NCBI RefSeq assembly: GCF_037977235.1
Contig: NZ_CP150276.1
Location: 1,054,001-1,118,000, forward strand
Direction of reading: 5' to 3'
From: Paenibacillus sp. FSL K6-0276
Lineage (GTDB): Bacteria; Bacillota; Bacilli; Paenibacillales; Paenibacillaceae
Length of the DNA stretch: 64,000 bases
Below, one piece after another: positions 571 through 28,650 of the stretch; positions within the stretch are counted from its first letter, which is position 1; each line of letters starts with the position of its first letter. The notes under the pieces are model-generated. The model was not told the DNA's origin and made no database searches. It worked only from the letters and a program-made list of their open reading frames with translations. The translations under genes and the position numbers were made by a program.

Positions 571-2460
571 ATGAAGTTGCCAAAACCCAAGATAGCAGCT
601 ACTTTGCTATTATTTCTATTGCTGTCTGCAATAGTGCCTTACGGTGCGGCGATAGTGAGTGCTGGATCATCAGACTCTACGCTGCCAAGTTGGGAGATTA
701 GATTTGGAAGTACTGAAGCAGAAACTGTTGAAGAAGCTGTAGCAGCTTCTGAAGATGAATGGATTCGCGTAACGCCTCATGATAACAAATCAGAGACTCC
801 AAGAGGAACATCCTCGGCGTGGCTCCGGATTTCTTTGCCGCAAATTAGTGACAAATCAGCGTTATTCATTGATAAAGTATATGGAAATAACGTCAAGGCT
901 TATCTGAATAATGCGTTAGTATACGAATCTGAGAATAAGTACAATTTCAACGGCATCAAAATTCTAATTCCTCTATCCAAGGGAGATGGAGGGCAAGAAC
1001 TATACATATGGACCCAGGGAGGAAGCAAGGACTTAGGGATAGAAGGCGAAATAAGAGTGGACCGCTACAATGAGCTCCTTTCCATTTATGTGAAGCAGGG
1101 TTTAATGGATCTCATCATCGGGACGACACTTATTTTTATAGCCATTGTGCTGTTGATTTGTTCGTTATTCTTAAAAAAAGGATTTTTTACGGGCGGTTTT
1201 TTACTTGTGCTGATTACTTTATCCCTTGGAGTCGTAGTGGTTACGTATTCTTCTTTTCTGCCCTCCATCCTAGGTGACTATGGAAATGTTGCACTCGTTT
1301 TCTTTGATTTAGCTTTATATACTTTACTGCCATCTTTTACATTGTATTTTGAGAGAATATTCGGTCCGGGGAAAAAACAAATCGTCACCCGATTCCGTAA
1401 GTTTCAAATGGTTTATTCTATATTCTGTCTATCACTAATGATTATTAATATCCTTCTGTCGTATCAGCTGGAAGACTTTTATAGATTCATGACTTCTAGC
1501 GTTCTAGGCGTCATTATGATTGTGCAATTTGTATTATTGGTAAGTTTGGCGTTTATTCATGCTTATCGCAGGAATACGGATGCTATTGTTTTTACTACAG
1601 GCTTCTCTGTATTTGCATTGATGTCCATTAGTGAATTAATCAAATACTATGTATCAGGAGAATCCTATCAATTGTTTTGGTGGAAATGGGGGATGGTTGG
1701 ATTCGTCATATCGCTGATCGTCATTCTGGGCAGAAGGTTTACGAGAAACCATGAGCAGCTCGTTGAGTATTCTCGTAAGCTTGAGAAGTTCAATAATGAT
1801 TTGCAACGCTCCGAGAAAATGGAGATTATTAGTGAATTAGCCGCTTCTGTAGCGCATGAGGTACGCAATCCCTTACAGGTAACCCGTGGTTTTCTTCAGA
1901 TCCTAGGAGAACGGTCAGATCATAAGGAGAGAGAATATATGCAGATGGCAATCGCAGAACTGGATAGAGCCACGGTTATAATCTCAGACTTCCTTACCTT
2001 TGCTAAGCCGGGGCTAGAGACCATTGAGAGGCTTGATGTATCTGAAGAGTTACGGCATGTGTCTGGTATTCTATCTCCGCTTGCGAATTTGCAAGGGGGA
2101 GTCATTGAACTCAACCTGCAGTCAGGACTTTGCGTGATTGGATCATCTGCCAAATTCAAACAAGCATTTATTAATATTATAAAAAATAGCATCGAAGCCT
2201 TGCAGGACAATGGACTTATTAGAGTTTCAGCCTGGAAATCCGGAGCTCATATAATGATCAGTGTACGTGATAATGGGGAAGGGATGAATGGTAGTGAACT
2301 GGCCCGATTAGGTGAGCCCTATTACTCCAACAAAACAAAAGGAACGGGGCTTGGACTTATGGTAACCTTCCGTATTATTGAGGCGATGGAAGGGACAACT
2401 GAGTTTCAGAGTGAGAAGGGGGAAGGGACGGAGATTATTGTCAAATTACCAAAAGTTTGA
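571..2460 (+). CDS. orphan membrane sensor histidine kinase, 7TMR-DISM-like (paralogue 1)
   Basis: A 629-residue kinase. Residues 1-30 are a signal peptide. Residues about 35-175 form an extracytoplasmic domain with the W-x-R-I-x-L-P pattern typical of jelly-roll sensor domains of 7TMR-DISM proteins. Residues about 178-390 hold some seven hydrophobic segments, followed by a short coiled coil. The phospho-acceptor is His429 in AHEVRNPLQVTRGFLQ, a HisKA box of the kind found in sporulation kinases KinA-KinE. The ATPase domain shows an N-box (NIIKNSIEAL), DNGEGM at about 567 and GTGLGL at about 591. The start has a GAGGTG site upstream. No response regulator is adjacent, so it probably feeds a distant partner; Spo0F is a guess from the H-box. 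The next gene is a diverged copy, and the convergent neighbours look like a pheromone synthesis pair, so a receptor role is possible but unproven. Confidence 0.9.
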   Translation: MKLPKPKIAATLLLFLLLSAIVPYGAAIVSAGSSDSTLPSWEIRFGSTEAETVEEAVAASEDEWIRVTPHDNKSETPRGTSSAWLRISLPQISDKSALFIDKVYGNNVKAYLNNALVYESENKYNFNGIKILIPLSKGDGGQELYIWTQGGSKDLGIEGEIRVDRYNELLSIYVKQGLMDLIIGTTLIFIAIVLLICSLFLKKGFFTGGFLLVLITLSLGVVVVTYSSFLPSILGDYGNVALVFFDLALYTLLPSFTLYFERIFGPGKKQIVTRFRKFQMVYSIFCLSLMIINILLSYQLEDFYRFMTSSVLGVIMIVQFVLLVSLAFIHAYRRNTDAIVFTTGFSVFALMSISELIKYYVSGESYQLFWWKWGMVGFVISLIVILGRRFTRNHEQLVEYSRKLEKFNNDLQRSEKMEIISELAASVAHEVRNPLQVTRGFLQILGERSDHKEREYMQMAIAELDRATVIISDFLTFAKPGLETIERLDVSEELRHVSGILSPLANLQGGVIELNLQSGLCVIGSSAKFKQAFINIIKNSIEALQDNGLIRVSAWKSGAHIMISVRDNGEGMNGSELARLGEPYYSNKTKGTGLGLMVTFRIIEAMEGTTEFQSEKGEGTEIIVKLPKV

Positions 2461-2573
2461 AATATTTAGGAGAAGTTTATGAATATTCCGTTTTTTAGAA
2501 GGAAAGGGTAGTATAGTGAGCGAAGTAGTACACACAGAATATTGTTTCTGATACTTCCTTCTGAGGTGCCTTT

Positions 2574-4493
2574 ATGCGCTTGATGGTTAGAATACTTCAC
2601 ATAGCAATAACCCTTTCACTTCTCCTGATAGGTTATGGTTCAATTATTGTATCGGCGGCTAACCCCTATCCATCTCAAGAAATTACAAAGTGGGAAATGA
2701 AATGGGGAGCTCAAACAGGAAATACATGGAAAGAGATTCCGTGGAGTGAAGGCCAGCAAAGCTGGACGAACGTAGATTCTATGAAGGGACTCCCAGAGTT
2801 ACCTTCAAGTGTATCCTCTTCTTGGACTCGTATTACCTTACCCGATTTTAAATATGTGTCTCCTTCGGTTTATATTGATACTTTATATGCTCTTCATGTG
2901 AGGGTGTATGTGGAGGATCGGTTGATCTTCGAGGAAGATCGTAATTATATTAAAGATAACTATTCTTTGTTATTACCTTTAAGTCAAGGAGATAACGGGA
3001 AAACATTATATATCTGGACAGCAACGATGCAGGACAGAATCGGAATTAAAGACAGTGTAGTGATCGGTGAACACAGTCAATTAATCAATGATTATATTGG
3101 GAATGGACTAAGCGATGTGATTTTGGGCTGCGCATTTTTTCTGGTGGCCATCGTTCTATTTATAAGTGCTTTATACATAAACAAAGATTACTTCTCCAGT
3201 GTTGCTTCACTAGCTGTGGTTATAGCGTGTACCGGAATCCTCTCTATAACCTACTCCTCTTTCATTTACACCTTTTACAATAAATTGGGGCCGATCAGTA
3301 ATGTATGCTTGGATTTAGCCCTATTGTCACTGTTACCGGCGCTTACCTTTTTATTTGAAAAATTATTCGGTAGTGGTAAGTTCGGTATCATTCGAAAGTT
3401 TCGTCAATTTCAAGTCCTTTACTCCTCCTTTTGTTTGTTATGTCTTTTTATCAATCTCCTATCGAATAATCGCTATATTGAGTTTTATTATTTTGTTTCT
3501 ACCACCATTATAGGGTTCATCCTCATCCTTCAGTTCATCCTGTTAATCGCATGTGTAATCATGTTCTCACTAAAAGGAAATAAGGACGCTATTATTTTTG
3601 CCATTGGATTTGGAACCGCTGCGTTTACTGTAGTTGCAGAGCTACTATGGTATTACATCCATAAAGGGAACTATGATTTGTTCTTGTGGAAGTGGGGACT
3701 TGTTGCTTTTATTATCTCCTTGATCGTTATTCTGGAGCGAAGATTGGCCTATAGCCATCAACAGGTTGTTAATTATTCTAGAGAACTAGAGCGTTTCAAC
3801 AATGAATTGGAGCGTTCGGAAAAAATGGAGATTATTAGCGAGCTTGCTGCATCCGTAGCTCATGAAGTACGAAACCCTCTACAGGTAACTCGAGGCTTCC
3901 TTCAGCTGCTTAGCGAGAAATCCGTTAGCGAAGAGCAAATATATATGTCAATGGCCCTTAGCGAACTAGATCGCGCATCTAATATTATTACGGATTTCTT
4001 GACCTTTGCTAAACCGGAATTTGAGACGATCTCTAGTCTGAATTTATATGATGAATTCAAGCATATTGAGAGTATTATGCAGCCCCTCTGTCATATTAAT
4101 GGAGGAAAGATGATTCTGGATGTATCCGGCCAATTATGGGTGAAAGGAAATTCCTCGAAGTTTAAGCAGGCATTCATCAACATTATCAAGAACAGCATTG
4201 AATCGTTCAGTGAGGAAGGGTTCATTTATATGTCGGTATATGGTGAAGATGACAAAGTGATTATTCACATCAAAGATAACGGGGAAGGGATGGACGCAGA
4301 TGTTCTGCACCGACTAGGAGAACCGTATTTCACCAAGAAAAATAAAGGAACAGGTTTAGGCTTAATGGTCACCTTCCGCATCATTGATGCTATGCAAGGT
4401 GAAGTGAGATTTACAAGCAAAAAAGGAGTAGGAACCGAATCCATTACCATACTGCCATTGGCAGAAGCTCCGGATGATTCCTACTCCCTATGA
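2574..4493 (+). CDS. orphan membrane sensor histidine kinase, 7TMR-DISM-like (paralogue 2)
   Basis: A 639-residue paralogue of the upstream kinase with the same plan: signal peptide ending near residue 28 (IIVSAANPYP), extracytoplasmic jelly-roll-like domain with SSSWTRITLPDF, about seven membrane segments at 180-390, coiled coil, His430 in AHEVRNPLQVTRGFLQ, N-box NIIKNSIESF, DNGEGM and GTGLGL. The cytoplasmic halves are far more alike than the extracytoplasmic halves, as expected after duplication with change of ligand. A GAGGTG site precedes ATG 2574. It follows paralogue 1 by 113 bases and ends only 16 bases from the end of the convergent NHLP/ComX-like gene. No response regulator is nearby. 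Sensing the product of the convergent genes is an inference from position. Confidence 0.9.
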   Translation: MRLMVRILHIAITLSLLLIGYGSIIVSAANPYPSQEITKWEMKWGAQTGNTWKEIPWSEGQQSWTNVDSMKGLPELPSSVSSSWTRITLPDFKYVSPSVYIDTLYALHVRVYVEDRLIFEEDRNYIKDNYSLLLPLSQGDNGKTLYIWTATMQDRIGIKDSVVIGEHSQLINDYIGNGLSDVILGCAFFLVAIVLFISALYINKDYFSSVASLAVVIACTGILSITYSSFIYTFYNKLGPISNVCLDLALLSLLPALTFLFEKLFGSGKFGIIRKFRQFQVLYSSFCLLCLFINLLSNNRYIEFYYFVSTTIIGFILILQFILLIACVIMFSLKGNKDAIIFAIGFGTAAFTVVAELLWYYIHKGNYDLFLWKWGLVAFIISLIVILERRLAYSHQQVVNYSRELERFNNELERSEKMEIISELAASVAHEVRNPLQVTRGFLQLLSEKSVSEEQIYMSMALSELDRASNIITDFLTFAKPEFETISSLNLYDEFKHIESIMQPLCHINGGKMILDVSGQLWVKGNSSKFKQAFINIIKNSIESFSEEGFIYMSVYGEDDKVIIHIKDNGEGMDADVLHRLGEPYFTKKNKGTGLGLMVTFRIIDAMQGEVRFTSKKGVGTESITILPLAEAPDDSYSL

Positions 4494-4509
4494 GGTTAAT
4501 CTTGCTGTC

Positions 4510-4749
4510 TTACCAAGAACCGCGTGGTGCTGCGGTTGCTTTCAATACATCTGATGATGGACTTGGTGGAATTACAAGATAGAATTCATTTGAACCTTCT
4601 TCAACGGCTTTCAAGGTAACGCTGTCGGGAATGATTACGCCTAGCGCTTCTTGGAGAGCTGCTTTTGGATCTGCGAGTAGTCTTTTCTTGAAACTTGGAT
4701 CTTCCCATGCCTTTTGAATGACTTGATTTCTAAGAACTGCTTCTGACAT
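4510..4749 (-). CDS. NHLP-leader peptide precursor with C-terminal Trp (ComX-like pheromone candidate)
   Basis: A 79-residue peptide. A longer reading from 4803 exists, but ATG 4749 has an AGGAAGGG site 7-8 bases upstream, and the family match begins there. Residues 8-62 follow the nitrile-hydratase-like leader (NHLP, TIGR03793) pattern: KAWEDPSFKKRLLADPKAAL, then a Leu-Gly-Val-x-x-Pro stretch, a Val-x-x-x-x-Glu region and LVIPPSP. In NHLP precursors the leader normally ends in a Gly-Gly or similar site before a core peptide. Here the segment after LVIPP is very short (SPSSDVLKATAAPRGSW) and ends with Trp79. The gene lies 93 bases downstream of a ComQ-like isoprenyl-transferase homologue on the same strand. 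ComQ prenylates a Trp near the C-terminus of ComX, so a prenylated-Trp signal is the best reading. No radical SAM, YcaO, lanthionine or PCAT transporter gene is nearby. The prenylation is inferred. Confidence 0.75.
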   Translation of the reverse strand: MSEAVLRNQVIQKAWEDPSFKKRLLADPKAALQEALGVIIPDSVTLKAVEEGSNEFYLVIPPSPSSDVLKATAAPRGSW

Positions 4750-4842
4750 AATAATCACCCTTCCTAAATGTATATATTTACCTTTATTAATATAACATAG
4801 CAATTGTGCTAATACTATTCTTTTTTCTACAAAATAATAGAA

Positions 4843-5778
4843 TTATTGTATATTTTTTGACAGATAATAAAATAATCCTCCGCCTTGTAAAAGCTGCTTC
4901 TCTGCTTCGATGGAATCGGAGATCTGTTGTAAATTAGTCACCAGCATAGAGTGGAACGCAATGAGATGAGGCACATCCAAGCTTGAAGCCATAACTTTGG
5001 TATGCGTATCATGCGCTAATTCGGCATAGGTTTGTAGTCCGTTTGCAGTGAACAGGAAGAATTCGACTTCTTTCGAAGTGAGTATAGTTGCACTATCACT
5101 GGATAGATAGCTTCGTGTGAGGGAGAGTAAACAATTATAACTGCCTTCTGACAAATCTTCTTTCCAGTCTTCATAGTCGTCAAGCATTTGCAGTGTAAGT
5201 AGGACAGAGTCGATCATTTCCTCAGACTGCGACACAAGGGAATCCTTACCAGATAGCAGAAGGGCAGCGGTGCTGGATAGTTTGAGCGGACTGGCTTTAT
5301 AAGAGATTTTGATTCGATCGTTAAGGAAATAGTCGCTGGTGGTTTCATTACTAACACTGTCTGCCCATTGAGAAATGTAACGATTAAACGAAGCCCAGAA
5401 AGAGGAGTCATTCGGAAATAAAAGCCTGTAGATATTCAAAAATTCAACATAGAGTAGGTTCGCCAAAGGTAGTCTTTCGTATGTAGAGGATTCTTTGCTA
5501 TCCATCAGGTCATCTTGTATGAAGAAATATAGCATGAAGAAGACATTGCCCATCGACATTTGACGGGTAATTTCTGCGGAGAGTCCGCAGCCTTTCTGAA
5601 GCCAAAAGGGCAATAGATAACATATGTAATTTTTGTGGCTTTCAGCATTGAATACGTTAAAATGTTCAAGATAGGACAGACCTTGTGAATTTAGAGGCTC
5701 TGGAAACTCGGAGATGATCTTTCTGCTCTCTTGGAATACTAAGCGGAGTTCTTCTTCGTAATCATTTAGCCAATCCAT
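4843..5778 (-). CDS. ComQ-like / class I polyprenyl-synthase-like protein
   Basis: A 311-residue, mostly alpha-helical protein of the class I isoprenoid synthase fold. It carries the two aspartate-rich Mg-diphosphate motifs expected of this fold: DDLMD (Asp89, Asp90, Asp93) within FFIQDDLMDSKE, and DDYED (Asp200-Asp204) within LQMLDDYEDWKED. The N-terminal Gly-Gly-Lys-Arg motif that binds isopentenyl diphosphate in chain-elongating synthases is not visible. That argues for transfer of a ready-made prenyl group to another acceptor, as in ComQ. Start ATG 5778 is five bases after AGGAGGG. A consensus sigma-A promoter lies upstream at 5855-5827. The gene is followed by the Trp-terminated NHLP precursor. 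An alternative is a small terpene or prenyl-diphosphate synthase unrelated to the peptide, but the gene pair makes the ComQ reading more likely. Confidence 0.75.
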   Translation of the reverse strand: MDWLNDYEEELRLVFQESRKIISEFPEPLNSQGLSYLEHFNVFNAESHKNYICYLLPFWLQKGCGLSAEITRQMSMGNVFFMLYFFIQDDLMDSKESSTYERLPLANLLYVEFLNIYRLLFPNDSSFWASFNRYISQWADSVSNETTSDYFLNDRIKISYKASPLKLSSTAALLLSGKDSLVSQSEEMIDSVLLTLQMLDDYEDWKEDLSEGSYNCLLSLTRSYLSSDSATILTSKEVEFFLFTANGLQTYAELAHDTHTKVMASSLDVPHLIAFHSMLVTNLQQISDSIEAEKQLLQGGGLFYYLSKNIQ

Positions 5779-5826
5779 TGCATCCCTCCTACAATAAAAT
5801 TACAAAAAAATGGTTCTTTCGCCCTG

Positions 5827-5855
5827 ATTATATCCTTCTCTTTATTCCATTACAA
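5827..5855 (-). promoter_or_regulatory. sigma-A promoter of the ComQ-like/NHLP unit
   Basis: Read on the minus strand, TTGTAA and TATAAT are separated by exactly 17 bases. The predicted transcript starts near 5820, giving a leader of about 40 bases before ATG 5778. No clear rho-independent terminator was seen between the two genes of the unit, so they are probably co-transcribed. The 93-base gap is very AT-rich and might hold a second promoter for the precursor. Confidence 0.65.
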
Positions 5856-5881
5856 CTAAAATTTAGGAGGTTTGAAGACGT

Positions 5882-6175
5882 ATGGAGTGCTATACATTTG
5901 GTCAAATGCTTATGGCTATTCGAATGGGGCAAAAAGCTGAAACACCAGACGGCCGCATTGTGATGCGTACCACTGCGGGACTGATTTGGACCAGTGGGAT
6001 ATTGAATGGGAAAATGGTAGAAATCAAAGATTATTTGTTCTCTGATCTGTGGCAGATCTATGAGGATGAGGAAAGCAAGAAAGAGGGGATTGGCAGAGAA
6101 AAGCATGAAGAACGGGAGCGGGAGATGCTTGAGAATCAATATGAAGAGCTGCGATTAGCGAGCCGTAAACGCTAA
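5882..6175 (+). CDS. small hypothetical protein with charged C-terminal helix
   Basis: A 97-residue protein. ATG 5882 is preceded by AGGAGG with an 11-base gap. The N-terminal 55 residues look like a small folded domain (YTFGQMLMAIRMGQKAETPD near the start, then a Trp-Thr-Ser-Gly turn). Residues 60-97 are very rich in Glu, Lys and Arg and probably form a single helix. The pattern F-x-x-x-L-x-A-I-x-x-G-x-K-A loosely recalls small DUF2829-type proteins, but I cannot assign it. It is divergent from the ComQ-like gene and shares the intergenic region with its promoter, so it could belong to the same regulatory unit. No signal peptide or membrane segment. Confidence 0.65.
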   Translation: MECYTFGQMLMAIRMGQKAETPDGRIVMRTTAGLIWTSGILNGKMVEIKDYLFSDLWQIYEDEESKKEGIGREKHEEREREMLENQYEELRLASRKR

Positions 6176-6204
6176 ATTCAACGTTCGACTCGCCAATCGC
6201 AGCT
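6147..6204. terminator. bidirectional hairpin between convergent genes
   Basis: A 16-base inverted repeat (arms 6147-6162 and 6189-6204, one G-T wobble position) spans the stop codon of the 5882 gene and lies just beyond the end of the convergent GH20 gene. There is no T-run directly after the stem on either strand, so termination may be inefficient. Its left arm lies inside the coding sequence of the small protein. Confidence 0.5.
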
Positions 6205-6216
6205 ATAAAGAGGAAA

Positions 6217-8127
6217 TTACTTCGATTTTAATGCTTCGTATTGACCTCTTAGACGTAGAAGTCTCCAGATACTTTGATCCAAGCCGCCGAGTCGGTTTCG
6301 CTCGGTCCACAATAGACGATATTGGTGAAGAAGCACATTCAGATCATTGATTTGTTTCGTAATCAGGTTAGGGTCAATCGAATCTGGTGCGGATACGAGC
6401 TGCAGTTTGATTCTGCCAAGCTGCACAGCGTGCTTCACAAAATGGATTCCGTTACTCAGTTCCTCTAGGACAAGATCAGCATCATCACATTGAAGATCAA
6501 GTCCCGAGAGACGTGCTTCGATAGAGAGTAGGTATTCCTCGAGATTGTTGAAATGTTCTTCGGTAAGTTTCTCTACGATTAACAAATTGTCGAGATTGGT
6601 GCGAAGAAGCAGGGACATTTCCGTATCATTTGAACGATTAATCTCGGATTCAAGCTGATAGTAATTGCCGAGATCAAGGAGCAATTGGCCAATACCCTCA
6701 GAGCGATCCGCGAAAACGAATGTATTTAAATACTTTGCAGTGTCCGCTGCTAGATTGTTATCTACATTCCAGGCAATTGCAGCACCGTAAGCATATCCAG
6801 CATAGCTGATTGGGAGATGCTGCCAGTGTCCGTGATCACCCCAATCGGTAATGAGATAGCCAATGGCGCCATTGTTCTTGCCATGAATAGCTGCGCTACG
6901 CAGATTGGCGAGCATATTGTCACTGCGCCCTGTAATGGAGTTCCATGAGCTGGTGCCTGGGCAGACATAGAAAGGAATACCTGCTTCACGGAATTTGAGA
7001 GTATCCGACTCGAAAGGATGTTCCGCACTGTAACCCCATTCCATAGCAATAATATCTTTAGGCAGGTGAGGGATTAGTTCGGGATGTTGGATAATAATAT
7101 CGCCCCAGAATTGCATCGTTTTGCCGCGTTTCGTAACGAGCTCATAAATCTTCTGAAGGAAAGATAAATAGATCTGACCTTTGCCTTGTGATTCAGCTAG
7201 CGCTTTACTTTTACCAAGACCAAGCTCATACGTCTCATCACAGCCTACATTAAACTGATTAGAGGTAAAGTAAGGAAGCAGATCGTCGAACATTTTTTCT
7301 AGCAGAGGGAGCACGGCAGGATCTTCGGTGTCAAAAGTACCTGGATGCATAAATAGTCCTTCTGGATATACGTCCCCCATATACAATTCCTTCGGAAGCA
7401 TAAAGCCTTCTGGAATTTCGGCCAAAGCGTTGAATTCAGAACGGGAAAGCCAGCCTTCCATATGTCCAAAGCTATTCTGGTTCGGAACAAGCTCAATATA
7501 ACGCGCCTTGCAGTAGGTATCTAGAAGCAAGATTTCCTCTCCAGTTATCGGAGTTTCAAGCTCCCACACTTGAGGGAAAGATTCATACGCGAACGGAGCA
7601 CCTTCTATATATAGCTGAAGTTCGTTCATCTTCAGATCGGCCATAAGGTCAATGATTCGGTATAAGGTTTCTTGCTTCGGAATTTTATTGCGGCTGATAT
7701 CTATAGTTATACCTCTGGCTCCAAAATCAGGTTCATCGCGAATATGTAGATTCGGAATAGATTTTCCGTTTTGTTCTATGATTTGTTTCAGGGTTGCTAC
7801 CGCGTAGAAGGCTCCGACAGGTGAGCTATAGGAGACAACGATCCCACTCTGGTCGACAACAATCTCATATGCTTGCTCAGACAATAATGCCACATAGCTA
7901 AAGATACAGGCGGATACAACGGTTGGACGTGTACCAATGGATAAGGTCAGATGAAGATTCAAGGCTTGTTTAATCACAGCTTGCAACTTTTGTGCAGCTG
8001 GCATTGCACATTGTTCTCCTGTACTAGGAAGCACGATGCTTCCGCTTATTGGAAAACGGAATGAGCCTTGTGACAATGTGATTTCACGCGGATTAGGTAG
8101 AAGCAGTAGCGTAGAATGATTAAGCAT
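6217..8127 (-). CDS. glycoside hydrolase family 20, beta-N-acetylhexosaminidase
   Basis: A 636-residue protein without a signal peptide, so probably cytoplasmic. Residues about 5-120 match the small alpha/beta GH20b domain that precedes the catalytic barrel. The barrel starts near FGARGITIDISRNKIPKQET and contains the family signature NVGCDETYELG, with the catalytic Asp297-Glu298 pair; the preceding Asp assists the acetamido group in substrate-assisted catalysis. It would remove terminal GlcNAc or GalNAc from imported oligosaccharides. GAGGTG precedes ATG 8127. The C-terminal 130 residues are helical and not part of the minimal barrel. The divergent AraC-type gene at 8212 is the likely regulator. 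Confidence 0.9.
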   Translation of the reverse strand: MLNHSTLLLLPNPREITLSQGSFRFPISGSIVLPSTGEQCAMPAAQKLQAVIKQALNLHLTLSIGTRPTVVSACIFSYVALLSEQAYEIVVDQSGIVVSYSSPVGAFYAVATLKQIIEQNGKSIPNLHIRDEPDFGARGITIDISRNKIPKQETLYRIIDLMADLKMNELQLYIEGAPFAYESFPQVWELETPITGEEILLLDTYCKARYIELVPNQNSFGHMEGWLSRSEFNALAEIPEGFMLPKELYMGDVYPEGLFMHPGTFDTEDPAVLPLLEKMFDDLLPYFTSNQFNVGCDETYELGLGKSKALAESQGKGQIYLSFLQKIYELVTKRGKTMQFWGDIIIQHPELIPHLPKDIIAMEWGYSAEHPFESDTLKFREAGIPFYVCPGTSSWNSITGRSDNMLANLRSAAIHGKNNGAIGYLITDWGDHGHWQHLPISYAGYAYGAAIAWNVDNNLAADTAKYLNTFVFADRSEGIGQLLLDLGNYYQLESEINRSNDTEMSLLLRTNLDNLLIVEKLTEEHFNNLEEYLLSIEARLSGLDLQCDDADLVLEELSNGIHFVKHAVQLGRIKLQLVSAPDSIDPNLITKQINDLNVLLHQYRLLWTERNRLGGLDQSIWRLLRLRGQYEALKSK

Positions 8128-8211
8128 AGCGTGGACACCTCTTATTCATGTAGAATATGATCAACTTCACAATAACCTTATCACTACTAAACACGGGGAG
8201 GAATGTCTATA

Positions 8212-9066
8212 ATGTCCAAGCACATGGATTATATGATCAGCCCATATCCAATTCGAATTATTGATCCAAAGGTTGAGTCCTCCAAACTGAAGCTTAAAAA
8301 TATAAGAGTAGGACAAGCCGGTCATTTGCCAGGAAGAACGTTATTCCGTTCAGGCGTAGTTTTTGAACACTGGGCTATTGTTTACATAGTATCTGGTGGT
8401 GGCACCTATATGGAGACTTCGGGGAAAGAACAGCAGGTGCGTGAAGGTAGCTTATTCTTTTTTCGCCCAGGATATAGTTACAATTTCGGTCCACCACCTG
8501 GAGGGAGCTGGGATGAGTATTATATTAATTTTAACGGAACACGTGTATCTGAATGGTTGGAATCAGGTCTGATTGCAGGTGGGAATGTGTTCCAAACGAA
8601 TTCGATCATGGGTCTTTCGACCTTATTTGAAGAAGTGCTGAAACGAATGGAGAGCGGAGAACCAGCAGATGCGGATCGGGCCGCATTACTCGTTGAAAGA
8701 ATGCTATTGGAGTGTTCATTTATAATAGAAGAAAAAAGTTGGAATGCTCAGGCAGATTATATGCGTCAGATTCGGGAGGACCTGAATTTATGCATTTATG
8801 GTGAAATGGACCTAGAGCAAATTGCGGCAAAACATCATATTTCGATGTCTACCCTTCGTCGTCTTGTTCGTCGTAGTAGCGGATATCCACTTCATGAATA
8901 TATTCACCGTCTTAAAATGGCAGAGGCCAAAAAGCTGCTTCTCAACACCTCATTACAAGTTAAAGAAATTTCTGGCATGCTTCATTATAATGATCCGTTC
9001 TATTTTTCTCGTTTGTTTAAAAAATATATGGGGATTGCACCACAGCTGTGTCGAAGTAATATATAA
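8212..9066 (+). CDS. AraC-family transcriptional regulator
   Basis: A 284-residue regulator. An ATG at 8203 is only one base from the GGGGAGG site, so the in-frame ATG 8212, with a ten-base gap, is the better start. Residues about 20-140 form a cupin-type sugar-sensing domain (WAIVYIVSGGGTYMETSG, then SLFFFRPGYSYNFGPP). Residues about 185-284 hold two helix-turn-helix motifs with the family hallmarks IAAKHHISMSTLRRLVRRSS and FYFSRLFKKYMGIAPQ. It is divergent from the GH20 gene with an 84-base shared promoter region, so it most likely switches that gene in response to an amino-sugar ligand. Confidence 0.9.
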   Translation: MSKHMDYMISPYPIRIIDPKVESSKLKLKNIRVGQAGHLPGRTLFRSGVVFEHWAIVYIVSGGGTYMETSGKEQQVREGSLFFFRPGYSYNFGPPPGGSWDEYYINFNGTRVSEWLESGLIAGGNVFQTNSIMGLSTLFEEVLKRMESGEPADADRAALLVERMLLECSFIIEEKSWNAQADYMRQIREDLNLCIYGEMDLEQIAAKHHISMSTLRRLVRRSSGYPLHEYIHRLKMAEAKKLLLNTSLQVKEISGMLHYNDPFYFSRLFKKYMGIAPQLCRSNI

Positions 9067-9325: not shown

Positions 9326-10972
9326 ATGAAAATCAAACCAACTGCAGAAGACAAACTGATCACGTTTTACAGGTATTTTTCTTTGTCCCTCACATCACTC
9401 ATGTATCTTCTAGATAAAATGGGGCCTTCCGTAATATACAAATCCCTTGTTATTGCTACACTATTTCTATTTGCACAAACGTTCTCATTTTGTTATCGGA
9501 AACTACGAAGCAGACCACGGACTCTCGTCTTGGCTGTTAGTATAGAGATGGTGGGAATTATTTTACTGACCTTATTTACTGGTGGGTTCGAAAGCTCCTT
9601 TAGGTTGTATGTGCTTAATCCCGTGTTGATTGCTGCAGGATCGTTATCCATTTATTTTGGTTGGTCTTTGCTCTTTAGTTACATCAGCGCTTTTGCGGTG
9701 CTCTGTTATTTTTTCATCAATTCGGCGAACAAAACGTTTCTTGAAGTTGTGTCTGTAAATGGGAATCTGTTTCTAACGCTGGTACTAGCTGTTATAATAA
9801 TGCAGAGCGTTAATCGGATGAAGCATCAACGTGAAGAATCGATTGCTCGCGCGAAAGAGACGATGGATCATATCAAAGCGTTGTACCATATCGTGGAAAC
9901 CTCAAGCCAACATGATTTCATGAACATCGGTCAAGTGATCACCGATTATGTTGTTAAGCTAACGAAGCTGGATAAAGCTTTGTTTTGGTTCGCTAAGAAA
10001 AGCGGAGAACCAGCGCCGCAGAGCAGGCAGACCGGCTGGCAGCAGGAAGAGGAACAGTTCTTATTTTCAGAACTGGGAAAACATGAACATGAATGGAGAT
10101 TGCAGCGAGAGCCTATTTTTAGAAGTCTTCCGGGATTAGGGGACTTCCTGCTGATGCCTGTACGGATGAGCACCCGTTTTGTAGGGGTGATTGGACTCAA
10201 GCTGGAGTCTACAGAAGGGCTAGAAGGCCGGAGATGGTATATCCAGCAATTGATATTCCTATCTGAGCTAAGCGCGAATATTCTTGAACGTCATGAATTA
10301 GGTGTGATTGAGAACCGGCTGATCATCACGAACGAGCAGAACCGGATTGCAGATGAAATGCATGACAGTGTCTCACAGAGTCTTTTTGGTATCGTGTATG
10401 CTACTCATTCGCTGAAGGAAACGTGGAAGAAAATGACGGACTCTGAGCTGGAGGAGCAAATCGAGCTTATCCATGATTCTGCTACAAAAGTAGCCAAAGA
10501 ACTGCGGATTACGATCTACAGTCTTAGTTCTAAGAAGAGCGGCGGACCTACATGGCTAGGTATGGTAAGATCGCATTTGCAGAGCTTATCCAGATTAAAT
10601 GATGTCGATATTGAATTAAAAATAACGGGCGATGACTTTAGTCTCCCTTATCCTTACCACAAGGCGCTTTTTCGGATTATCTCTGAAGCCACTGGGAATG
10701 CCATTAGGCATGGTGCCGCTAGTCGAGTAGATGTGGAGTTATCTCTGAAGCCGAACTGGATCCGCTTATTGATTTGTGATGATGGTGTTGGATTTGATAC
10801 AGATCTGTTATGGATTGAATCCGAAGATAGTGCAAGTGGTCTTGGCATGAAGAATATGCAATATTTGACGCAGTCGCTAGGTGGCGACTTCCAGCTGTCC
10901 AGTAATGAAAATATGGGAACGAGAATCTTGATCTCCATTCCTGTGGGTGTAGCTGAATTAAAGAATGCATAA
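9326..10972 (+). CDS. NarL-type sensor histidine kinase (HisKA_3)
   Basis: A 548-residue kinase. Residues about 15-165 contain four to six membrane segments. Residues 190-320 look like a GAF-type cytoplasmic sensor domain (LTKLDKALFWFAKK, FVGVIGLKLE). The dimerisation box has His346 in ADEMHDSVSQSLFGIVY, the HPK7/HisKA_3 form seen in DegS, LiaS and NarX. The ATPase domain includes an N-box (RIISEATGNAIRHGAA), CDDGVGFD and SGLGMKNMQYL. The response regulator gene starts 24 bases downstream, so the two form an operon. The pair sits directly before the exopolysaccharide operon. Control of that operon is suggested by position only. Confidence 0.92.
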   Translation: MKIKPTAEDKLITFYRYFSLSLTSLMYLLDKMGPSVIYKSLVIATLFLFAQTFSFCYRKLRSRPRTLVLAVSIEMVGIILLTLFTGGFESSFRLYVLNPVLIAAGSLSIYFGWSLLFSYISAFAVLCYFFINSANKTFLEVVSVNGNLFLTLVLAVIIMQSVNRMKHQREESIARAKETMDHIKALYHIVETSSQHDFMNIGQVITDYVVKLTKLDKALFWFAKKSGEPAPQSRQTGWQQEEEQFLFSELGKHEHEWRLQREPIFRSLPGLGDFLLMPVRMSTRFVGVIGLKLESTEGLEGRRWYIQQLIFLSELSANILERHELGVIENRLIITNEQNRIADEMHDSVSQSLFGIVYATHSLKETWKKMTDSELEEQIELIHDSATKVAKELRITIYSLSSKKSGGPTWLGMVRSHLQSLSRLNDVDIELKITGDDFSLPYPYHKALFRIISEATGNAIRHGAASRVDVELSLKPNWIRLLICDDGVGFDTDLLWIESEDSASGLGMKNMQYLTQSLGGDFQLSSNENMGTRILISIPVGVAELKNA

Positions 10973-10996
10973 ACTTTAGGGCGGGAGGTCGTTTCT

Positions 10997-11632
10997 ATGA
11001 AAATCGTCATTGTAGATGATCATCCTCTAGTTAGAAGAGGGCTGGCATCTGTTATTTCGATGCAACCGAATGTGAAGTTTGCTGGAGAGGCGACGAATGG
11101 CCAAGAAGCGCTTCTTGTGATTGAGGAGACGCAGCCTGACCTCGTACTCATTGATCTTAAACTAGCGGATGAATCAGGACTCGATGTCATCAAGACAGCA
11201 CGTGCTCGTGGTATCGTTAGTAAGTTTATTCTGCTGACTTCATCTGCAAGCAGAGAGGATTTTCTGAAAGCTGAGGAAGTGCTGGTAGACGGATATGTAC
11301 TGAAAGAGGCATTGCCAGAAGAGTTACTATTTGCTATTCAGTTGGTCCACAAAGGGAGAAAGTATTATGATCCTGGTCTGATGGAAGATAAGATGCGAAT
11401 GAGTGGAAGCAGTCCGACAGATGAATTGACGCCGAAAGAGAAGGAAGTCCTAATCGAACTAGGACAGGGCGCTTGCAATAGAGAAATTGCCTCACGTCTT
11501 TTTATTAGTGAATTTACAGTGAAGAAGCATGTCAGTCAGATTTTAGCGAAATTACAGGTGGCAGATCGTACACAGGCGGCGCTTTATGCAAATGCTGTCG
11601 GATTGACCAAATATGAAATGTCATTTGACTAA
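10997..11632 (+). CDS. NarL/LuxR-family response regulator
   Basis: A 211-residue regulator. The receiver domain (residues 1-120) shows the acidic pair Asp7-Asp8, phospho-acceptor Asp53 in LVLIDLKLADESG, Thr/Ser near 82 and the conserved Lys in GYVLKEALP. The C-terminal LuxR-type helix-turn-helix (about 143-205) contains LTPKEKEVLIELGQGACNRE and FTVKKHVSQILAKLQVADRT. A GGGAGG site precedes ATG 10997. It is the cognate partner of the kinase at 9326. A strong terminator follows at 11662. Confidence 0.93.
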   Translation: MKIVIVDDHPLVRRGLASVISMQPNVKFAGEATNGQEALLVIEETQPDLVLIDLKLADESGLDVIKTARARGIVSKFILLTSSASREDFLKAEEVLVDGYVLKEALPEELLFAIQLVHKGRKYYDPGLMEDKMRMSGSSPTDELTPKEKEVLIELGQGACNREIASRLFISEFTVKKHVSQILAKLQVADRTQAALYANAVGLTKYEMSFD

Positions 11633-28455: not shown

Positions 28456-28573
28456 GACTGATAAGTTATAAACAGGTATTGTGACCTAATTATTGAATAA
28501 TAGACATAAATAGATAAAATAACAATTAAATGAAGTCGATATTTACGGTAGAGGGATTAATCCTCCTCAATTT

Positions 28574-28650
28574 GATAATGGCAAACCTATCGAAAGATAG
28601 GGACGCAAAGCTATAGGGCCTTCGCAAGAGTGGCAGCCTGGCTACCGAAA
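28574..28650 (+). promoter_or_regulatory. cyclic-di-GMP class I (GEMM) riboswitch
   Basis: The aptamer shows the conserved blocks of the c-di-GMP-I class: GGCAAACC, then a stem CCTATC-GAAA-GATAGG with a GNRA loop (28586-28601), the highly conserved GACGCAAAGC (28602-28611), TAGGGCC, and the closing GGCAGCCTGGCTACCG (28632-28647). Immediately after it come AAAGGAAG and a TTG start codon at 28662, so control is probably at translation initiation or through the adjacent first stem. CCTCCT near 28562-28567 could pair with the ribosome-binding region in one state. The controlled gene is the broken GH26 gene at 28662, and possibly the intact genes behind it. Confidence 0.9.

Follow-up and report, generated by a model that had tools for sequence, protein, structure and literature searches.

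The closest described relative of the locus discussed here is the PalXQP system of Paenibacillus alvei, reported by Miyata, Ito and Fujinami in December 2023 (PMC10853753). The P. alvei cluster, versions of which occur in various Paenibacillus, encodes a histidine kinase (PalP), a precursor peptide with a nitrile hydratase-like (NHLP) leader (PalX) and a prenyltransferase (PalQ). In vitro, P. alvei PalQ attaches C5, C10 or C15 chains to PalX, and nuclear magnetic resonance of the C5 product revealed modification of indole C3 of the C-terminal Trp, yielding a tricyclic pyrroloindole. The leader aids prenylation without being essential to it, and alanines appended after the Trp abolish the reaction. 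Cell lysate cleaves PalX between T72 and D73, freeing the last eight residues, and no role was given for PalP (all PMC10853753). The system was reviewed in 2026 (PMC13290415), and a term search of the accessible text of that review returned neither PalP nor PalX. In the following paragraphs we discuss the corresponding genes in a 64,000-nucleotide stretch of Paenibacillus sp. FSL K6-0276 (NZ_CP150276.1, positions 1,054,001 to 1,118,000; hereafter the window). We put at roughly 55% the probability that its palX, palQ and two sporulation-type palP kinases make up a prenylated peptide signal feeding the Spo0 phosphorelay.

The window locus is the PalX/PalQ/PalP system already known from P. alvei (PMC10853753). 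It has the same three components, including an NHLP precursor with a C-terminal Trp, and is orthologous by sequence and order; residues D89, D93, Q197, D200 and D204 of the window enzyme fall at their published numbers. Unlike P. alvei, the window lineage has two PalP paralogues, its PalX tail reads TAAPRGSW rather than DNVRRFFW, and K39 of PalQ, described as not highly conserved (PMC10853753), is His. Window PalQ is 41% identical to the PalQ (with K39) of a genome whose PalX reads T72-D73-NVRRF, as published. A search of 100 genomes from the window's genus did not recover the exact core DNVRRFFW; in the taxonomy used, P. alvei is probably assigned to a different genus. In one P. alvei-like locus (L239, genome G421; X at 4905-5288) the precursor matches published PalX through TDNVRRF and then differs; the deposited PalX lacks the terminal Trp, either because strains differ or because of the sequencing. 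The prenylation chemistry is already known for the family and very probably holds for the window pair. A first-pass annotation, made from the sequence of the window without database searches, had proposed a new class of prenylated-Trp peptide, a proposal that the 2023 publication overtakes. Its choice of the Trp as the likely prenylation site, in a ComQ/ComX-like arrangement, agrees with what the published PalQ does in vitro (PMC10853753).

The same annotation had described an isoprenyl-transferase homologue with two aspartate-rich motifs, followed on the same strand by a 79-residue NHLP-leader precursor ending in Trp, and both open reading frames (ORFs) are as described (Table 1). The palX frame begins with an ATG preceded by a good ribosome site and has TGG as its final codon. 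Window PalX matches the leader_NHLP profile TIGR03793 at 64.2 bits (cut-off 50.9), as do 18 of 18 diverse PalX sequences at E 0.001 or better, and a PalX query gives a single match in the window genome. ComX (PF05952) is not among the matches listed for window PalX up to E 1, and neither the Pfam polyprenyl synthase model nor any NCBIfam model matches PalQ up to the same value. Thus, of the profiles suggested in the first-pass annotation as a check, the leader model recognized its target and the ComX and ComQ/polyprenyl-synthase models did not.

PalQ carries the motifs DDLMD (residues 89-93) and DDYED (200-204), and D89, D93, Q197, D200 and D204 are invariant across 12 diverse homologues. A search of PDB sequences with a PalQ profile gave E 0.44 or worse. 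The best Foldseek match, at E 1.4e-3, falls short of E 0.001, so that the predicted isoprenoid-synthase / isoprenyl diphosphate synthase fold rests on a second aligner. This predicted fold, together with the label of terpene synthase that some homologues bear in databases, would suit an enzyme whose products are a terpene or free prenyl diphosphates, with palX an unrelated gene next to it. We regard this as highly improbable, since the P. alvei homologue has been purified and prenylates PalX (PMC10853753), and since gains and losses of X coincide with those of Q across the genus. One scan of viral contigs, with the window enzyme as sole query, found no relative. In two P. ihuae loci (L029 and L088) and in genome G019, palQ is in two frames or pieces; in P. 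ihuae the adjoining precursor looks intact.

In a first survey PalQ was present in 34 of 60 close relatives, and the precursor adjoins the enzyme in all 30 loci examined from these 34 genomes, as the first-pass annotation had anticipated for a genuine pair. Among genomes sampled from the order, 193 of 296 contain PalQ, spanning 22 of 48 genera; among those sampled from the class, 26 of 299 do, every one of them from the family to which the window belongs. A single PalX query (E 0.001) matches 331 of 394 family genomes, the weakest matches possibly being other NHLP peptides. Within the window's genus (37 genomes), X occurs in 29 of 29 genomes with Q and, weakly, in one of the eight without Q (Fisher P 8e-7); the two genes come and go together, and their pairing is no accident.

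Gene order was compared in 121 loci: the window, 80 named loci (the best 80 of 204 found) and 40 regions chosen for diversity. Several of these regions are from genomes of the named loci, and the architecture counts therefore repeat some genomes, which the set of distinct precursors discussed below does not. Q is followed by X on one strand in 117 of the 121, and the two are divergent in one (L241). Q stands alone in three, one of which lies at a contig end, the other two (L097 and L105) being real exceptions. The gene facing X encodes a PalP-type kinase in 113 loci, and in two more (L078 and L092) such a kinase lies beyond Q. Of the other six, a contig end truncates three, L218 has no such kinase in 5 kb, and L097 and L105 lack both X and kinase. 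In the window the stop codons of palP1 and palX are 16 bases apart. Across 114 facing X-P pairs, for which a PalP of over 590 amino acids was required, the median gap between stops is 39.5 bases, with 30 bases or less in 49 pairs and overlap in four. Read-through transcripts from such convergent genes could cause interference between producer and receptor.

Precursors of at least 70 amino acids numbered 119, of which 107 are distinct in their last 70 residues. The Trp is the exact C-terminus in 84 of the 107, and is followed by one residue in 16, by two in five and by six in two, L239 being among the latter pair. The expectation that orthologues would keep a C-terminal Trp is thus borne out for the 84; with L239, which differs, set apart, 22 of the 107 carry one to six residues past it. 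The terminal or extended state switches nine times along a 101-row PalQ tree, at least six of these switches on well-supported branches. Since P. alvei PalQ rejects extended peptides, lineages with an extended PalX would have to either trim it first or possess a more tolerant PalQ. These extensions qualify the published statement of terminal Trp conservation.

The adjoining kinases, which the first-pass annotation overlooked, make the strongest case that the locus serves in signalling, and they point to the Spo0 phosphorelay rather than to ComP/ComA. In the window, two paralogous membrane kinases, palP2 and palP1, converge on palX. The PalP sensor is predicted to consist of an N-terminal helix, a beta-sandwich and seven helices (predicted local distance difference test score, pLDDT, 82). 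PF07695 (7TMR-DISM) scores 22.1 bits on window PalP, below its cut-off of 29, and matches six of 23 PalP proteins at E 0.001. The top Foldseek match of the sensor model is human WLS, the carrier of lipidated Wnt, at E 2.3e-5 but with a template-modelling (TM) score of 0.32 and a root-mean-square deviation (rmsd) of 14. A second aligner gave G-protein-coupled receptors (GPCRs) and GH2 jelly-roll domains, WLS being absent among the 50 matches listed. We take the likeness of the sensor to WLS and GPCRs to reflect no more than a shared arrangement.

A quickly built tree of 136 PalP sequences comprises 103 proximal units (113 before L239 and identical copies were dropped) and 33 distal ones. Window palP1 groups with proximal kinases in a supported set of 26, and palP2 with distal kinases in a set of 25; hence the second kinase has persisted across the entire clade and has diverged. 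In other loci the additional kinase is found beyond Q (six loci, one kinase each side), and in two genomes (L076 and L082) two X-P pairs share one Q. Three of these four duplicated X-P units have an X and a P whose closest relatives share a group. Mean identity is 0.27 for the PalX tail and 0.30 for the outer domain of PalP, as against 0.56 for the leader and 0.65 for the kinase domain; the two fast-evolving parts may fit a polymorphic signal and its receptor, and also unconstrained sequence.

The PalP core is of the HisKA type (PF00512), and its best match among solved structures is the sporulation kinase KinB (3d36, E 1.6e-52), the next being ZraS (8.8e-27). The ten closest kinase cores in the window genome are those of PalP1, PalP2 and eight others. 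No response-regulator-like ORF was found in the flanks of these ten loci, and such ORFs are present at the next two by rank; this comparison covered 1.5 kb past the matched core, with upstream flanks partly covered (none for L196), and used two receiver probes at E 1e-4. No regulator gene stands beside palP in the window, where 570 bases lie upstream of palP2, or within 2.7 kb upstream in a relative (L032). Six specificity residues were taken from Table 1 of PMC6136694 and mapped by us to positions H+7, +8, +11, +12, +14 and +15; the same mapping reads TAGFQL in the KinB structure 3d36. For Bacillus subtilis KinA to KinE that table gives TAGFQL, TVGFQL, TSGFQI, TGGFQL and TAGFQL (PMC6136694). 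The proximal PalP kinases read QVGFQL in 96 of 103 cases, with one odd motif, and all 31 readable distal ones (of 33) read QVGFQI or QVGFQL. Window palP1 thus agrees with Bacillus KinB (TVGFQL) at five of six positions and palP2 at four. Among the 26 readable of the genome's 30 strongest HisKA loci, four carry xxGFQL, and all four belong to the eight kinases nearest PalP.

The window genome contains Spo0A and a Spo0B-sized ORF of 256 amino acids with a SPOB_a domain (PF14689). According to a survey, Paenibacillus Spo0B is membrane-bound in 92% of genomes, for which its authors give greater reliance on membrane kinases as a possible reason (PMC12826061). From the KinB-type core, the missing regulator gene, the xVGFQL residues, Spo0A and membrane Spo0B, PalP is predicted to phosphorylate Spo0F. 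We found no PalP-Spo0F link in the literature searched, which covers few subscription journals and preprints, nor any role for PalX or PalP, and this wiring appears to be unpublished.

Several observations weigh against such a signal. H+7 is Gln in all PalP but the one odd read, and Thr in KinA to KinE, and the SPOB_a model also matches genomes without Spo0B, making that match a weak one. The D200A/D204A mutant of P. alvei PalQ is still active (PMC10853753), so the second aspartate-rich motif proves little. Further points are the 22 extended precursors, the two loci having Q with neither X nor PalP nearby, and one duplicated unit (L082.1) whose X and P have discordant nearest relatives. For no PalXQP locus did we find a product, an export route or a phenotype. 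Finally, there are receivers not far off. In two of the 121 loci a receiver-like ORF lies less than 1 kb from PalP: 163 bases away in L241 (887-2500, 537 amino acids) and 475 bases away in L084 (10702-10896, 64 amino acids). In the window a two-component pair of NarL type, by look, occupies 9326-11632 (+), at 3.5 kb from palQ. A receiver ORF lies similarly far off in about 20 related loci, most of which belong to the window's clade; the nearest receiver ORF in the window is 5.2 kb from the palQ start. We judge the receivers of L241 and L084, and the NarL-type receiver that the clade has about 5 kb from palQ, to be neighbours of other systems.

If the product instead acted through this kinase and NarL/LuxR-type regulator pair, the locus would be a true ComQXPA-like circuit, to which the position of the pair and its counterparts elsewhere lend some weight. 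Against this, the flanks of 57 of 81 loci (the window and the named set; one probe) hold no receiver ORF, the constant neighbour is PalP and not the pair at 9326-11632, and neither PalX nor PalQ matches a ComX, ComQ or polyprenyl-synthase profile. We consider such a circuit improbable.

PalP might also tune or repress palXQ by way of another regulator without being a receptor, with the target of the product intracellular or in the cell wall. We found no binding data, and the covariation of PalX and PalP is not specific to the sensor. In partial Mantel tests the PalX tail correlates weakly with the outer domain of PalP (r 0.13 with Q, leader and kinase removed) and more strongly with the kinase domain (r 0.28 with Q, leader and outer domain removed), a result that also counts against the signal reading; specific coevolution of tail and sensor was accordingly rejected, and what covariation there is may only reflect shared descent. 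The large, fast-evolving outer domain and seven-transmembrane (7TM) sensor, the KinB-type core and the Spo0F-type specificity residues all speak for a receptor, and we find a non-receptor PalP doubtful.

The strongest competitor to a pheromone is that PalX is a prenylated, antimicrobial or membrane-active member of the ribosomally synthesized and post-translationally modified peptides (RiPPs), whose effect PalP senses or whose production it regulates. NHLP leaders occur in bacteriocin-like RiPPs, to judge by family names, and PalQ prenylation of peptides raises their antimicrobial activity (PMC13290415). Radical SAM, YcaO and lanthionine (LanM) enzymes, whose absence the first-pass annotation had remarked upon, were indeed not found among the window genes scanned (571-9066). 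No transporter was found among these genes either, which disfavours an antimicrobial. An intact C39 peptidase, as expected of a peptidase-containing ATP-binding cassette transporter (PCAT), is missing from the whole genome; the sole C39 matches are two overlapping fragments far from the locus (G000:C1:3517802-3518039), in line with the earlier statement that no PCAT is present. The PalP-type kinase facing palX in most loci, the KinB-type core in the window and the sharing of one Q by two X-P pairs likewise fit an antimicrobial poorly. We hold it to be unlikely, if less so than the other alternatives.

In the prenylated peptide signal that we favour, PalQ would add a prenyl chain to the C-terminal Trp of PalX, about the last eight residues (TAAPRGSW) would be released, and the trimmed prenylated peptide would be exported. 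It would then bind the beta-sandwich and 7TM sensor of PalP, and phosphotransfer from PalP to Spo0F would set sporulation, biofilm formation or late growth by cell density. The wider proposition, an order-wide prenyl-Trp pheromone whose polymorphic peptide is read by GPCR-like 7TM kinases that phosphorylate Spo0F with no dedicated response regulator, we consider about evenly balanced. The chemistry being known from one enzyme in vitro, the remaining interest lies in the wiring of the receptor and in the recurrent residues past the Trp. If PalP does feed Spo0F, a cell-density signal for sporulation has been overlooked in most sampled genomes of the order, one that combines a RiPP leader with a prenyl group; this would also explain why so many of these genomes possess a peptide prenyltransferase.

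Table 1. Features of the pal locus in the window (columns: feature, position, strand, basis)
palX, NHLP-leader precursor peptide, 79 amino acids, C-terminus ...ATAAPRGSW	4510..4749	-	reading frame; TIGR03793 profile match
Trp79 codon (last residue of PalX), likely prenylation site, inferred from P. alvei PalX	4513..4515	-	sequence; PMC10853753
palQ, peptide tryptophan prenyltransferase homologue, 311 amino acids, predicted trans-isoprenyl-diphosphate-synthase fold	4843..5778	-	
PalQ first aspartate-rich motif (FARM), D89-D-L-M-D93	5500..5514	-	D89, D90, M92 and D93 invariant in 12 homologues
PalQ Q197 and second aspartate-rich motif (SARM), D200-D-Y-E-D204	5167..5190	-	Q197, D200, D201 and D204 invariant in 12 homologues
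likely sigma-A promoter of palQ-palX, TTGTAA, 17, TATAAT	5827..5855	-	10/12 consensus match
palP1 (proximal), 7TM sensor histidine kinase, specificity residues QVGFQL	2574..4493	+	convergent with palX
palP2 (distal), paralogous 7TM sensor histidine kinase, specificity residues QVGFQI	571..2460	+	separate distal clade of 25

The likely promoter is the best match upstream of palQ, position 5855 being the first base of its -35 hexamer. The palQ region contains nine promoter-like matches against 4.0 in shuffled sequence, and this promoter block is kept across an alignment of 21 loci from the window's clade. A GACAAA resembling a Spo0A box lies downstream of the palQ promoter in some loci; it is not kept in the window and was dropped. 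Divergent from palQ is an ORF of 97 amino acids (5882-6175, +) with no family match above cut-off. Farther away, a c-di-GMP-I-GGC riboswitch (28571-28650, +; 68.2 bits) directly follows a long run of same-strand ORFs, from 11885 onward, which resembles an exopolysaccharide cluster.

Compared with known systems, the locus shares its leader family with the proteusins and other NHLP RiPPs that use PCAT export, and differs from them in having no Gly-Gly in its precursor. With ComQ/ComX/ComP/ComA it has in common an enzyme of predicted isoprenoid-synthase fold, a Trp-bearing ribosomal peptide and a neighbouring membrane kinase, and in broad terms the two would operate similarly. Unlike ComX, in which the Trp is internal, the window precursor has an NHLP leader and a terminal Trp and does not match the ComX profile. 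ComP and ComA are a HisKA_3 kinase and a NarL-type regulator, whereas the window has a HisKA kinase of KinB type with no adjoining regulator, and its enzyme, unlike ComQ, lacks a polyprenyl-synthase profile match. The KinB-type sporulation kinases resemble PalP in their core (3d36), in having no regulator alongside and in the residues xVGFQL; PalP is set apart from them by its predicted sensor of a beta-sandwich and seven helices, which may be 7TMR-DISM-like, by Gln at H+7 and by a gene that adjoins that of a peptide.
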